Assembly (NCBI GenBank): GCA_020248915.1
Contig: JADCGP010000015.1
Span: 62,001-126,000, forward strand
Reading direction: 5' to 3'
DNA from: Rubrivivax sp.
GTDB taxonomy: Bacteria > Pseudomonadota > Gammaproteobacteria > Burkholderiales > Burkholderiaceae_C
DNA: 64,000 bases
In this document: positions 45,648 to 50,752 of the stretch, piece by piece
Layout of the letters: every line of letters starts with the position of its first letter
Position numbering within the stretch: the stretch's first letter is position 1
Notes under the pieces: generated by a model
What the model saw: only the letters and a program-made list of their open reading frames with translations
Told to the model about the DNA's origin: nothing
Databases searched by the model: none
Program-made: the position numbers and the translations under genes

Positions 45648-48203
45648 TCAGGCCGCGACGGCCATCGGCGCGCGCGCGCGCTCGGGGCTGCCGCCGCGCA
45701 GCGCGTCGAGCACGGCCTCCGGCGCCAGCGGCCGCGACACCACGTAGCCTTGGCCGAGCGGCACGCCCATCTCGCGCAGCGCCTGCAGCTGGGCCTCGGT
45801 CTCGATGCCCTCGGCGATGACGCTGCGGCCGAGCGTGGTGCCCAGGTTCAGCACCGCGCGCACGATCTCGGCGTTGTGCGGCGCCTGCTGCATGCCCTGC
45901 ACGAAGGAGCGGTCGATCTTCAGGCTGTCGATCGGCAGCGTGCCCAGGTAGGCGAGCGACGAGTAGCCGGTGCCGAAGTCGTCGATCGAGAAGCGCACGC
46001 CGATCTCGCGCAGCTGCCGCATGCACTGCAGCGCGTCCGTCAGCCGGCCCATCAGCGTCGTCTCGGTGATCTCCAGCGTCAGCAGCCGCGGCGCCAGCCC
46101 GTGGCGGGCCAGCATGCCCTGCACGTTGGCGGCCATCGTCGAGCGGCCGAGGTCGCTGCCGGAGATGTTGACGTGGATCGTCGGCAGGCGGTCGCGCGGC
46201 AGCTGCTGGTGCCAGCCGGCCAGCTGCGCCAGCGCGCGCTCGAGCACCCAGTCGGTGAGGGCGCCGATCTGGCCGGTCTCCTCGGCCAGCCGCACGAAGA
46301 GGTCGGGCGAGATCGACCCGGCGCGCGGGTGGTTCCAGCGCACCAGCGCCTCCAGGCTCTTGATGCGCCGGGTGGGCAGGTCGAAGATCGGCTGGAAGGC
46401 CAGCGACAGCTGGTCCTCGGCGATGGCGCGGCGCAGGTCGGCCTCCAGCGTCAGCCGGCGCGCCACCTTCTCGTTCAGGCGGTCGTCGAACACGACGTAG
46501 CGGCCGCGGCCCTGCGCCTTGGCCTCGTACATCGCCAGGTCGGCGTCGCGCAGCACCTCGTCGACCAGGGTGTGGCGCGGGTGGCCGATGGCCACGCCGA
46601 TGCTGGCGCTGGGCACGATCTCGATGTCACCCACCGTCACCGGCGCGGCCAGCGCCGCCTGCAGCCGCTCGGCCAGGGCCACCGCCACCGAGGCGTCGGC
46701 CAGCGGCGTCAGGATGATCGCGAACTCGTCCCCGCCCATGCGGGCCACCAGGTCGCCCGGGTCCACGCAGGTCACCAGCCTGTGTGCCACCTCGCGCAGC
46801 AGCCGGTTGCCGGTGAGGTGGCCGAGCGTGTCGTTCACGTCCTTGAAGCGGTCGAGGTCGACGAACAGCACCGCGAAGCCGTCGCGCGCGCCGTGCTGGT
46901 GCTCCTGCAGGATGCGCTGCAGCCGCTCGATGAAGCGGGGCCGGTTGGGCAGCTCGGTCAGGCTGTCGTGGAAGGCGATGTGCTCGAGCTTGGCCTCGGC
47001 CTCGCGCCGCGCCGTCATGTCCAGCACCTGGTACAGATGGCCCTGGCCGGCGTGGCCCGGGTCCTGGAAGGGGCTGCAGTGCACCGACAGCCACAGCCGG
47101 TCGCCGGCGTCGTTCTCCGTCATCAGTTCGGCCGAGTAGGCGTCGGTGCCGGTGTAGGGCAGGATGTCGCCGCGCCGCCGCTGCGGCGAGTCGGCCTCGG
47201 CCGCCGGCAGCAGCGCCGCCGGGAACTCCATGCCGGTCATGCGCTCGCGCCCGCGCTGCATCATCCGGCACAGCGCGTCGTTCACCTCGGCGATGCGCCC
47301 GTCGGGCCGCACGATGGCCATGCCGATGGCCGCGTGCTCGAACGCGGCCACGAAGCGCTGGTGGCTGAGCGCGGCCTCGCGCTCGGCGGCGGCCACCTTG
47401 GCGGCCTGCTGCTGGTGCTGCTCTTCCTGGCGCTGGACGGTGTGGCGCAGGAGCGCGGCCAGGGCGATGGCCACGATGCCGGCGATGGCAAGGACCTCGA
47501 GCCCGATCAGCAGCGCGAGCACGGCCATCGACCCGCCGGCCAGCGCCGTCACCAGGCTGGCTGCGAGCATCCAGTCGGTTTGCTTCAGCCAACTGAGGGG
47601 AGAGAGCGCTTCCCCGCGCTTCAGTGCGACGATGGTCAGCGTCAGGAAGACCGTGCTGAGCAGGTTGCAAGGCGCGGCGATGCAGATGGCGGCGACCACT
47701 GCGCCGCTCTCTCCGAGCAGAGGCGTCAGCCAGTGGCGCAGCAGCAGGAACAGTCCGCCCGCGAAGGCCATGCCCAGCGTCGAGATGCTGGGCGCCATCA
47801 GGCGGCTGGTGAGCCGCTTGGAGTTGCGGCAACTGACGATCACGCCCTCGGCAAACGAGGCCAGTACTGCGGCAGCGGGCCCGAAAACTCCAAGTGCCGC
47901 GAAGCTGACGGCGTCGGTGAGGGTGAACGTCGTGGTCGTTCGCGGCACCCGCACCGACAAGACCGAACTGGCTGCAGCAAGCATCATCGCTGCCGCAATG
48001 CCGATCTGGGTGCTGGTTGAGGCAAGGACCGCCGACCCGAACGCCCATCCGAGTGCGACGATGCCCGCCAGTACCGTCGCCGCCCACACCAGCGCCGCAG
48101 AGCCCGTGTAGTCGAAGAAGTGCGTGCGCCAGAAGCGACGCCAGAGCGGCGTCGCTTCATGCCAGCGCGGCTCTTCCATGTGCGCGGGAGGCAGCGGCTG
48201 CAC
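45648..48203 (-). CDS. membrane PAS-GGDEF-EAL protein (putative c-di-GMP cyclase/phosphodiesterase)
   Basis: N-terminal multi-TM domain; [43 protein letters not shown]; intact GGDEF and EAL motifs. Confidence 0.93.
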
Positions 48204-48239: not shown

Positions 48240-50555
48240 TTACTGCGGGAGCGTGCCTTCGGTCAGCAGCAGCCCCTCCGTCAGCAACAGGCCTTCCGTC
48301 AGCAACAACCCCTCCGTCAGGAGTAGCCCCTCCGTCAGGAGCAGGCCTTCGGTCAGGAGCAGGCCTTCGGTCAGGAGCAGGCCTTCCGTCAGCAGGAGTC
48401 CTTCCGTCAGGAGCAACCCTTCGGTGAGCAGCAGCCCCTCAGTCAGGGACACGCCATCCGCCTGCAGCTGGCTCCCCGTCGTCGTCATCGGCGACACCTG
48501 GAACCCGAGCGACAGCGTCACCCCGGAGCTTGCCTTGCCGGTGCCGTGCCACTGCGTCACCGGTGCCAAGGCCATGCGCTGCAGGTCCGCGGAGTTCTTC
48601 CTGCCGCCGTCGAGCAGCTTCACGCCGCCCCCAAGCAGGTGCTCGCGCGTGCTCTGGCGTTCGACGATGCTCGCGGGCACCTGGTTGGCGCCCCAGTTGG
48701 CACCGGCCGGCTGGTAGGTGACGGTCGTGCGCGTGGCGAGCGAGCGCACCCAGGTCAGCCGGGGGTCGTAGACACCCTGGAAGGCCTCGAACAACACGGT
48801 GCCGGTGGCCGGCCGGTTACCGCCGGCGAGCACCATGCGGCTCCACGAGGCGTCGAAGGGCACCACCTGCCCGGCGGCCAGCAGCGGCGCACCCGGCGCC
48901 AGCGTGCCGGCCTCGAGCTGCTGGCGCACGTCGGTGCGCAGCGCGCGGGCCAGCCGCACGGCGCCTTCGGCGTTGAGCTGGCCGGTGCCCTGGTCGAGCA
49001 GGCTTGCCTCGCGCAGCGGGCGGGCGGTGTACTGCAGCACGGCCTTCACCAGCGGCGGCGTCAGGCCCGGGTTGGCCTGCAGCACCAGCGCCGCGGCGCC
49101 GGCCACCAGCGGGGCGGCGGCCGACGTGCCGCTCATCCGCATCAGCCGCGGCGCGGCCGATTGCACCTGGATCTGCGGGTGGCTCGCGGCCAGGAAGTTC
49201 AGCGTGCCGCTGGTGCTGGCGGCCATCGCGCCCACCAGTTGCCGGCCGGGTGCCACCAGGTCGGGCTTGAACAGGTTGTCGATCCAGCGGCTGCCGGTGG
49301 TCGTGCGCATCGCACCACGGGTGGGGCCGCGCGAGCTGAAGGCGGTCATCCTGTCGTCGCCGAGCCCGGTGGTAGCGGCGCTGTCGGCCGCACCCACGGT
49401 GATGACCGACGGGTCGTGCGCCGGCGAGCCGACGCTGCCGTACAGCGTGCGCCCGTCGGTCGCCAGGCCGTAGTTGCCGGCCGCGGCCACCACCACCAGG
49501 CCCGTGGCGGTGGCCGCCCGGGCCGCACGCGCCACCGGGTCGACCAGGTAGGAGTCGACGGAGGTCGAGGCGATGCTCAGGTTGACGACCTGGATGCCGT
49601 GCAGCCGCGAGCGCTGGATCACCCAGTCCATGCCCGCCACGAACTCCGAGAGCGATCCGATGCCACGCTCGTCGATCACGCGAACGTCGTACAGCGTGGC
49701 GCGCGGGGCGATGCCGCCGCTGTGCACGCCGGCGGCGCTGATCACGTTGTTGCCGGCCGCCATCGCGGCCACGTGCGTGCCGTGGCCGTACGGGTCGCCG
49801 ACGCTCAGCGAGGGGTCGAAGCGCTGCAGGTCCTGCGCCTGCGTGCCGCAGATCCGCATGGCCTGGGCGCTGCAATCGGTGGTGAAGTCGCTCGCCCTTC
49901 GGGACCACCCATCGACGTCGGCCATCGCCTTGCGCCGGCTGACGAAGTCGACCACCGCCCGCACCCGGGTCTGGCCGTTGGCGCCGGCGAATGCCGGGTG
50001 CCGGTGGTCGATGCCGGAGTCGAGCACCGCGATGCCGATGCCGGTGCCGTCCAGCGCCGCGTTGCTCGAGACGTTGCCGCCGAAGGCCACCGGCAGCAGG
50101 TTCACGGCCGAGGAGGCTGCCTGCTGCAGGCTCGCCTTGGGAGAGGCCGGGCGGTCCGGGATGATCCTCTGCACGTCGAGCCGCGCCTCGAGCGTGGACA
50201 GGGCCGCCAGCGGCACCTCGGCCGCCAGGCCCCGTACCGAGGCGTAGTTCCAGAACACGGTGCCGCCGTTGCGCACGATGGTGCCGCGCAGGGCCGCGAG
50301 CGACGGATCGGTCGACCCGGACAGGATCACGACCTTGACCCGGGCCTGGCCGTTCTTGTGGCCTGCCCAGCGCACCGCCTTCTCGCCGGTGGGCACGCCC
50401 TTGCTCCGCACCTCCTGCAGGTCGGCCGAGACCTTGCCCGACGAGATGCTCTGCAACGGCGCCTGCGCCTGGGCGGCGAGGCCCAGCGACACCAGCACCG
50501 ACCCCAGCATCGCGCGCAACGCGCTTGGCGCCGAAAGCCGCTTCATCAGATCCAT
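48240..50555 (-). CDS. secreted S8 subtilisin-like serine peptidase with C-terminal hexapeptide repeat tail
   Basis: Signal peptide region MDLMKRLSAPSALRAMLGSVLVSLGLAAQAQA; IAVLDSGIDHRHPAF (Asp), DPYGHGTHVAAMAAG (His), MSGTSAAAPLVAGAAAL (Ser); tail VSLTEG(LLLTEG)10TLPQ. Confidence 0.93.
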   Translation of the reverse strand: MDLMKRLSAPSALRAMLGSVLVSLGLAAQAQAPLQSISSGKVSADLQEVRSKGVPTGEKAVRWAGHKNGQARVKVVILSGSTDPSLAALRGTIVRNGGTVFWNYASVRGLAAEVPLAALSTLEARLDVQRIIPDRPASPKASLQQAASSAVNLLPVAFGGNVSSNAALDGTGIGIAVLDSGIDHRHPAFAGANGQTRVRAVVDFVSRRKAMADVDGWSRRASDFTTDCSAQAMRICGTQAQDLQRFDPSLSVGDPYGHGTHVAAMAAGNNVISAAGVHSGGIAPRATLYDVRVIDERGIGSLSEFVAGMDWVIQRSRLHGIQVVNLSIASTSVDSYLVDPVARAARAATATGLVVVAAAGNYGLATDGRTLYGSVGSPAHDPSVITVGAADSAATTGLGDDRMTAFSSRGPTRGAMRTTTGSRWIDNLFKPDLVAPGRQLVGAMAASTSGTLNFLAASHPQIQVQSAAPRLMRMSGTSAAAPLVAGAAALVLQANPGLTPPLVKAVLQYTARPLREASLLDQGTGQLNAEGAVRLARALRTDVRQQLEAGTLAPGAPLLAAGQVVPFDASWSRMVLAGGNRPATGTVLFEAFQGVYDPRLTWVRSLATRTTVTYQPAGANWGANQVPASIVERQSTREHLLGGGVKLLDGGRKNSADLQRMALAPVTQWHGTGKASSGVTLSLGFQVSPMTTTGSQLQADGVSLTEGLLLTEGLLLTEGLLLTEGLLLTEGLLLTEGLLLTEGLLLTEGLLLTEGLLLTEGLLLTEGTLPQ
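48255..48452 (-). repeat. 11 x 18-nt coding tandem repeat (LLLTEG units)
   Basis: Units such as ccttcggtcaggagcagg on the plus strand; ten translate to LLLTEG and the first-translated to VSLTEG. Confidence 0.95.
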
Positions 50556-50752
50556 GGCAACTCCAATGCAAGAGGATGCGGACCTATGCCCGCGCAAGTC
50601 CTCCTTCGGCACCATCGGACCACGACCTGAGGCCTGAATCCCCTCGAAAGAGGGGGGTCCGACCTCGAAATCCGGGCCGAGCGTGACGGAGTTCGCAGCT
50701 GGCGGGGCGGGCGCTTCGGGGCCGGTTCCGACCGGCCAGCCGAGATGGCAGG

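Follow-up and report, generated by a model that had tools for sequence, protein, structure and literature searches.

The window, as we call the whole 64,000-nucleotide stretch of Rubrivivax sp. DNA analysed here, carries on its minus strand a protease gene whose reading frame ends ADG-VSLTEG-(LLLTEG)x10-TLPQ-stop. This raises the question of what keeps ten consecutive hexapeptides identical when their codons differ, and of what such a tail does at the very end of a protease.

The protease and its repeat array

The positions of the protease, its tail and the gene that follows are collected in Table 1. The window protein scores 158.7 bits against Pfam PF00082 (cut-off 21.8) with a complete Asp-His-Ser triad, and D199, H278, N381 and S498 are each conserved in at least 90% of relatives, the last three being invariant. 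It is a member of the Peptidase S8 family and its sequence predicts proteolytic activity. The protein has in common with that family the catalytic D, H, N and S, a propeptide-like region and a probable signal peptide, and differs in having a C-terminal beta-rich region, for which no PDB match was found at E ≤ 0.001, and the hexad tail. In NCBIfam it falls below every curated cut-off, and Pfam Inhibitor_I9 was matched in 2 of 42 relatives and not in the window protease. A second in-frame ATG (M21, 50555) lies immediately ahead of the signal-peptide-like stretch. A motif RFxVLIER, or a near version of it, is conserved before this stretch in several relatives (L022, L023, L026, L028, L030 and L031); these N-termini belong to the non-F clade of proteases and may represent an extended signal region.

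Table 1. Features of the protease gene and of the adjoining gene in the window.
Feature	Position	Strand	Basis or remark
S8 (subtilisin-type) serine protease gene, 791 aa from first ATG	48240..50615	-	Pfam Peptidase_S8, 2.5e-46
Probable Sec signal peptide, start MDLMKRLSAPSALRAMLGSVLVSLGLAAQAQ	50463..50555	-	Read by eye from the sequence
I9-like propeptide region, residues about 80-160	50136..50378	-	Confident alpha/beta domain in AlphaFold2
S8 catalytic domain, residues 190-540; D199, H278, N381, S498	48996..50048	-	Pfam
C-terminal beta-rich region between catalytic domain and tail, residues 575-695	48531..48893	-	AlphaFold2, confident over most of length
Hexad tail, VSLTEG then ten LLLTEG units	48255..48452	-	
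TLPQ and stop	48240..48254	-	Without the -GE(P/K) or GDNTxxM end that follows the array in most relatives
Membrane domain-PAS-GGDEF-EAL protein, 851 aa, immediately downstream of protease	45648..48203	-	Pfam
Its multi-TM membrane (sensor-like) domain	47409..48116	-	Homologous to that of Acidobacteriota partners (hhalign)
Its GGDEF domain	46503..46976	-	Pfam, 4.9e-45
Its EAL domain	45729..46442	-	Pfam, 1.9e-75

The eleven units fill the interval in Table 1 exactly, as the first-pass annotation had described; Tandem Repeats Finder detects the array at period 18 (score 200) and period 54 (score 256). That annotation had also held that the tail is not a standard S8 accessory domain, and Pfam indeed has none there. 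The ten LLLTEG units are identical as peptide, with all 143 codon differences over all unit pairs being synonymous and none nonsynonymous, and the mean synonymous difference between units is pS = 0.55. Codon identity between units is 0.47, compared with 0.55 expected from random draws on the gene's own codon usage; the Gly codon GGA is used once, and ACT is confined to the VSLTEG unit. None of the 10 changed hydrophobic codons is a conservative change from Leu to Ile, Val, Met or Phe (p ~0.005, assuming that these replacements are as acceptable as synonymous changes). The codons are thus as mixed as the gene's usage allows, so that the identity of the peptides comes from selection and not from fresh duplication. 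The units in the window are old, and selection is required to keep their peptides the same.

Hexad tails across the protease subfamily

Full-length relatives with hexad tails occur in many of 81 genomes of the genus, often several per genome. A back-translated DNA pattern of three consecutive units matched 29 of these 81 genomes and 26 of 401 genomes of the family, spread over 13 of 141 genera; the reversed control pattern matched none in either set. The array is therefore neither a chance match nor an assembly artefact, the latter being a concern of the first-pass annotation. Every array inspected from the pattern searches sits, within the limits of the fetched DNA, on an S8 protease of the subfamily. 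Scanning GTDB species genomes brought in Piscinibacter, Rhizobacter, Ideonella, Methylibium and Aquabacterium as well as many Acidobacteriota (Blastocatellia, Pyrinomonadaceae, Terriglobia); that scan searched with peptide patterns of the catalytic domain, and so did not select relatives by their tails in the first instance. A C-terminal period-six tail was present in 96 of 100 complete relatives from Burkholderiales and Acidobacteriota, the other four comprising three with WG-type repeats and one that is apparently truncated. The tail is hence a feature of the subfamily and not of this one protein; homologues lacking it or carrying disrupted units, a prospect raised by the first-pass annotation, are not what this survey found. 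A plasmid search returned generic S8 matches alone, all below 60% identity and none spanning 80% of the query.

The unit varies from protein to protein (FVLTEG, LVLSEG, GVLIGD and others; in Acidobacteriota GVLIGD, GVLVSD, SAVWGD and similar) and is uniform inside each. Across 107 arrays, the probability of the same residue at positions 1 to 5 is 0.88, 0.92, 0.90, 0.94 and 0.99 within a protein and 0.28, 0.33, 0.40, 0.49 and 0.56 between proteins. Arrays in Burkholderiales mostly have 7–11 units, and in most relatives the array is followed by a conserved end, -GE(P/K) or GDNTxxM. We considered whether the window protein had lost this end by frameshift, as the +1 frame past TLPQ reads SNPPDSQDPL and resembles the ADPATTQDPALLGE of relatives; 262 of 1000 shuffles score equally, and the idea was dropped.

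The mean pN/pS between units is 0.095 (81 arrays). In the protein repeats surveyed by Persi, Wolf and Koonin in 2016, individual repeats are conserved between close species, as they are here, and divergence between copies inside a protein is accelerated (PMC5120217), whereas in the hexad tails it is suppressed. The tail is thus a clean natural case of the reverse of the general pattern, with repeats identical inside a protein and different between proteins. Conservation by position is clearest in close pairs: in all four pairs at 93–95% gene-body identity the copy number is kept and units are most like their positional counterparts (similarity 0.96–0.97, against 0.77–0.85 to other units). At 89% identity or less this positional orthology is mostly lost, and between L013 and L014 the entire array differs in its unit, LFMSEG in one and FIMSEG in the other. 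Stasis with occasional wholesale turnover fits these data best. The earlier view of the tail as a copy-number-variable module consequently finds no support over the short term, and the view that the repeat does not reflect fresh slippage, right as to selection on the peptide, applies only to the recent past, since arrays appear to be replaced at 89% identity or below.

At the DNA level, a unit resembles the next but one more than its direct neighbour (over 81 arrays, combined Z is 5.7 at lag 2 and −4.2 at lag 1). This was noted in L045, L081, L117, L016 and others, and suggests that arrays turn over in units of two hexads. A three-hexad rung as the unit of DNA duplication, hinted at by the 54-base period, was rejected, as the same 81 arrays have an excess at lag 2 and none at lag 3. 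Scrambling of codons against recombination was also rejected: although adjacent units are less alike than shuffled ones, codon identity within arrays averages 0.61 against a codon-usage expectation of 0.54, so there is no general scrambling.

The adjoining membrane protein

The hexad tail is real, conserved and selected, and the protease subfamily that carries it has a conserved partner in signalling. This partner, a membrane protein with GGDEF and EAL domains encoded directly downstream in the window, lies in the genomic context that the first-pass annotation had missed. Its family was found in 33 fetched loci, mostly straight after the S8 gene, and in one locus (L109) the order is protease-sensor-protease-sensor in tandem. 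The partner directly downstream of the protease was noted in the window and in loci L090–L112, a pair conserved across Burkholderiales. Most of the membrane proteins beside the protease are c-di-GMP enzymes. With the membrane domain of the window protein as query, matches were obtained in all 35 genus genomes that have the protease and in 3 of the 46 that do not (Fisher p = 8e-20, a value that overstates independence because the genomes are related). Of the 87 membrane-domain hits in the genus, 43 lie immediately downstream of an S8 hit, and 61 have one within 8 kb. In three genomes (G030, G041 and G051) the sensor domain is present and no protease of the subfamily was detected. Conserved adjacency and co-occurrence suggest a protease-sensor pair that may be functionally coupled; the pairing is drawn from gene order and co-occurrence, which are phylogenetically non-independent within one genus. 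Neither the pair nor the tails were found described earlier in the open-access literature, of which our coverage is incomplete.

In Acidobacteriota, the gene next to the protease often encodes a homologous membrane domain (hhalign with the window domain: probability 99.85, E 6.5e-31) joined to varied outputs, namely GGDEF-EAL, HD-GYP-GAF, HD-GYP-GAF-GGDEF and HisKA-HATPase-REC. The arrangement is like that of MASE-type sensors such as MASE9, with a multi-TM N-terminal domain before GGDEF, EAL, HD-GYP or kinase domains. Three of 12 Acidobacteriota partner homologues match MASE9 (PF20972) at E ≤ 1, the best at 2e-7; L167 scores 23.6 (cut-off 24.3), and the window partner has no match to MASE9 or any other MASE model. 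In many Acidobacteriota (L113, L115, L116, L121, L126, L128, L129, L133 and others) a protein of ~300 residues follows the S8 gene in place of the membrane sensor; the single one tested, in L128, is a GNAT acetyltransferase.

The genetic link between a secreted protease and a c-di-GMP protein of the membrane is reminiscent of LapG, a periplasmic cysteine protease bound by the periplasmic domain of LapD, itself a membrane GGDEF-EAL protein. Here, by contrast, a serine subtilase stands in place of the cysteine protease, and the multi-TM domain of the partner is combined with variable outputs. A review of c-di-GMP sensing counts MASE1 among the putative sensory domains without discernible purpose, and the word subtilisin is absent from its text (PMC8846402). 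A protease gene tied to MASE-type sensors in two phyla, with interchangeable outputs, would offer a concrete candidate input.

Fold and role of the tail

The six-residue period is common to the tail and to the hexapeptide repeat (PF00132) of the left-handed beta-helix enzymes LpxA, DapD and CysE, and the hexapeptide signature is present in distant relatives of the window protein. The tails of two Acidobacteriota relatives (L117 and L148) reach 50.5 and 54.7 bits against Pfam Hexapep, well above its cut-off of 27; at E ≤ 0.01, Hexapep is matched by 14 of 42 relatives and LbH_EIF2B by 20. Taken in isolation, the tails form a rough gradient that runs out at the window tail. The GVLISD tail reaches 28.1 bits with Hexapep, above the cut-off; GVMLAD, GIVLSE and GLVLSE tails match LbH_EIF2B with E of 0.006, 0.002 and 0.02, all below its cut-off; the isolated LLLTEG tail has no Pfam hexapeptide match, and the window tail and the tested Burkholderiales tails are below every Pfam hexapeptide cut-off. 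With ten exact units, the window tail does consist of contiguous six-residue repeats. In interrupted arrays of relatives, the spacing from one copy of the commonest unit to the next is divisible by six residues in 64 of 85 cases, against an expected 14, with filler that is often degenerate; the six-residue phase is thus kept across the filler, as a solenoid needs.

The textbook motif [LIV]-[GAED]-x2-[STAV]-x fits the Acidobacteriota repeat, I-G-D-G-V-L. The window unit departs from it, reading L-T-E-G-L-L with T at i+1, where the motif has Gly, Ala, Glu or Asp, and Leu in place of a small residue at i+4. Compared with the LbH enzymes, the protease tail is also far more uniform and is without an acyltransferase context. 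An AlphaFold2 model of the full-length protein (mean pLDDT 76, tail ~50) has short strands every six residues in the tail; a model of the C-terminal 217 residues is of low confidence, with tail pLDDT ~50 and no strands in the tail, and Foldseek found no PDB match for it. Because the window tail falls below the Pfam cut-off and departs from the textbook motif, we do not class it as a proven left-handed beta-helix.

We favour, with a probability of roughly 0.55, the reading that one subfamily of secreted S8 proteases is characterised by a C-terminal beta-solenoid of hexapeptide repeats, of which the window tail is the divergent form found in Burkholderiales, and that the protease works with the adjoining membrane protein. 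A beta-solenoid is also the best of the readings offered by the first-pass annotation, because the Acidobacteriota tails match the hexapeptide-repeat family, even though the window tail itself is unmatched. In such a fold the rungs would stack in register, like side chains lying one above another from rung to rung, and a substitution would be tolerated only when every rung changes; in-register stacking would thus account for units that are uniform inside a protein and varied from one protein to another, and wholesale replacement of the array could supply the changes of unit. The protease would most likely mature in the periplasm or at the cell surface, where a rigid tail might dock it or position it relative to the membrane domain of the partner, and its proteolytic activity or a processed product may be passed on to the cytoplasmic output (here GGDEF-EAL, and so c-di-GMP). 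The acetyltransferase found beside the protease instead in some Acidobacteriota counts against this explanation.

Several other roles for the tail were weighed against the solenoid. Its place at the extreme C-terminus in nearly all relatives, together with the conserved end past the array, would suit a module for secretion or surface attachment, for instance a C-terminal signal for sorting or retention that ends in GE(P) and keeps the protease at the outer membrane or in the matrix. A general sorting signal should, however, occur on other proteins, and the inspected arrays are all on this S8 subfamily; the window protein, moreover, is without the conserved end, and no dedicated processing enzyme caught our attention among the nearby genes. 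We think this role unlikely. The hydrophobic triplets are beta-prone and in register, and identical repeats favour in-register stacking, as would be expected of an amyloid-like module that associates with itself and so gathers the protease into clusters. Against such a module speak the Glu-Gly at every sixth residue, the usual array size given above, the conserved motif at the end and the fact that relatives match a soluble repeat fold, and we consider it distinctly improbable. That the tail is a recent, functionless expansion of a DNA repeat might be argued from the tandem 18-base repeat, the dimeric periodicity of the array DNA and the apparent replacement of arrays over longer times. This is contradicted already by the synonymous pattern, in the window and over the 81 arrays, and by conservation of the tail across the subfamily and two phyla, and has hardly any likelihood.

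The remaining proposals link the tail to the sensor. The unit covaries with the membrane domain of the sensor (Mantel r 0.54) more than with the catalytic domain of the protease (0.37, 36 pairs); given the catalytic domain, the partial r is 0.44 (p 0.0005, 36 pairs, in a partial Mantel test that runs liberal). The output domain of the sensor covaries with the unit nearly as the membrane domain does, except in the F-unit clade, where covariation is confined to the membrane domain (0.42, compared with 0.20 for the output domain); the larger clade shows no such specificity for the membrane domain. As a link between tail and sensor this covariation is suggestive only. The uniform hexads could conceivably be a repeated cognate ligand read by a MASE-like receptor, either as a docked solenoid or as released peptides, although we would not count this as likely either. 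Were it so, the unit type would set the specificity between paralogous pairs in one cell, and the receptor would feed c-di-GMP or kinase outputs.

A narrower version holds that the tail is a multi-copy peptide signal, cut by the protease itself or by another one to release identical hexapeptides for the neighbouring sensor, in the manner of repeated pheromone precursors in fungi. Identical units with synonymous codons, a unit that differs between proteins, a linked membrane sensor and the covariation, above all that of the F-unit clade, are all in its favour. The degenerate fillers nevertheless hold the six-residue phase, which is needless in a precursor, the units have neither a spacer nor a consistent cleavage site, the Acidobacteriota tails match a structural repeat family, and the covariation is subject to the limits just given. 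We therefore regard release of peptides as rather improbable and retain the solenoid as the preferred reading.

Among the relatives, rare units with Arg at position 4 (FILREG, LVLREG) were noted in L015 and L099 and are nearly uniform in each protein. In L167, a related S8 protease adjoining an HD-GYP-GAF gene has a tail of eight-residue period (DSIFWGQS).
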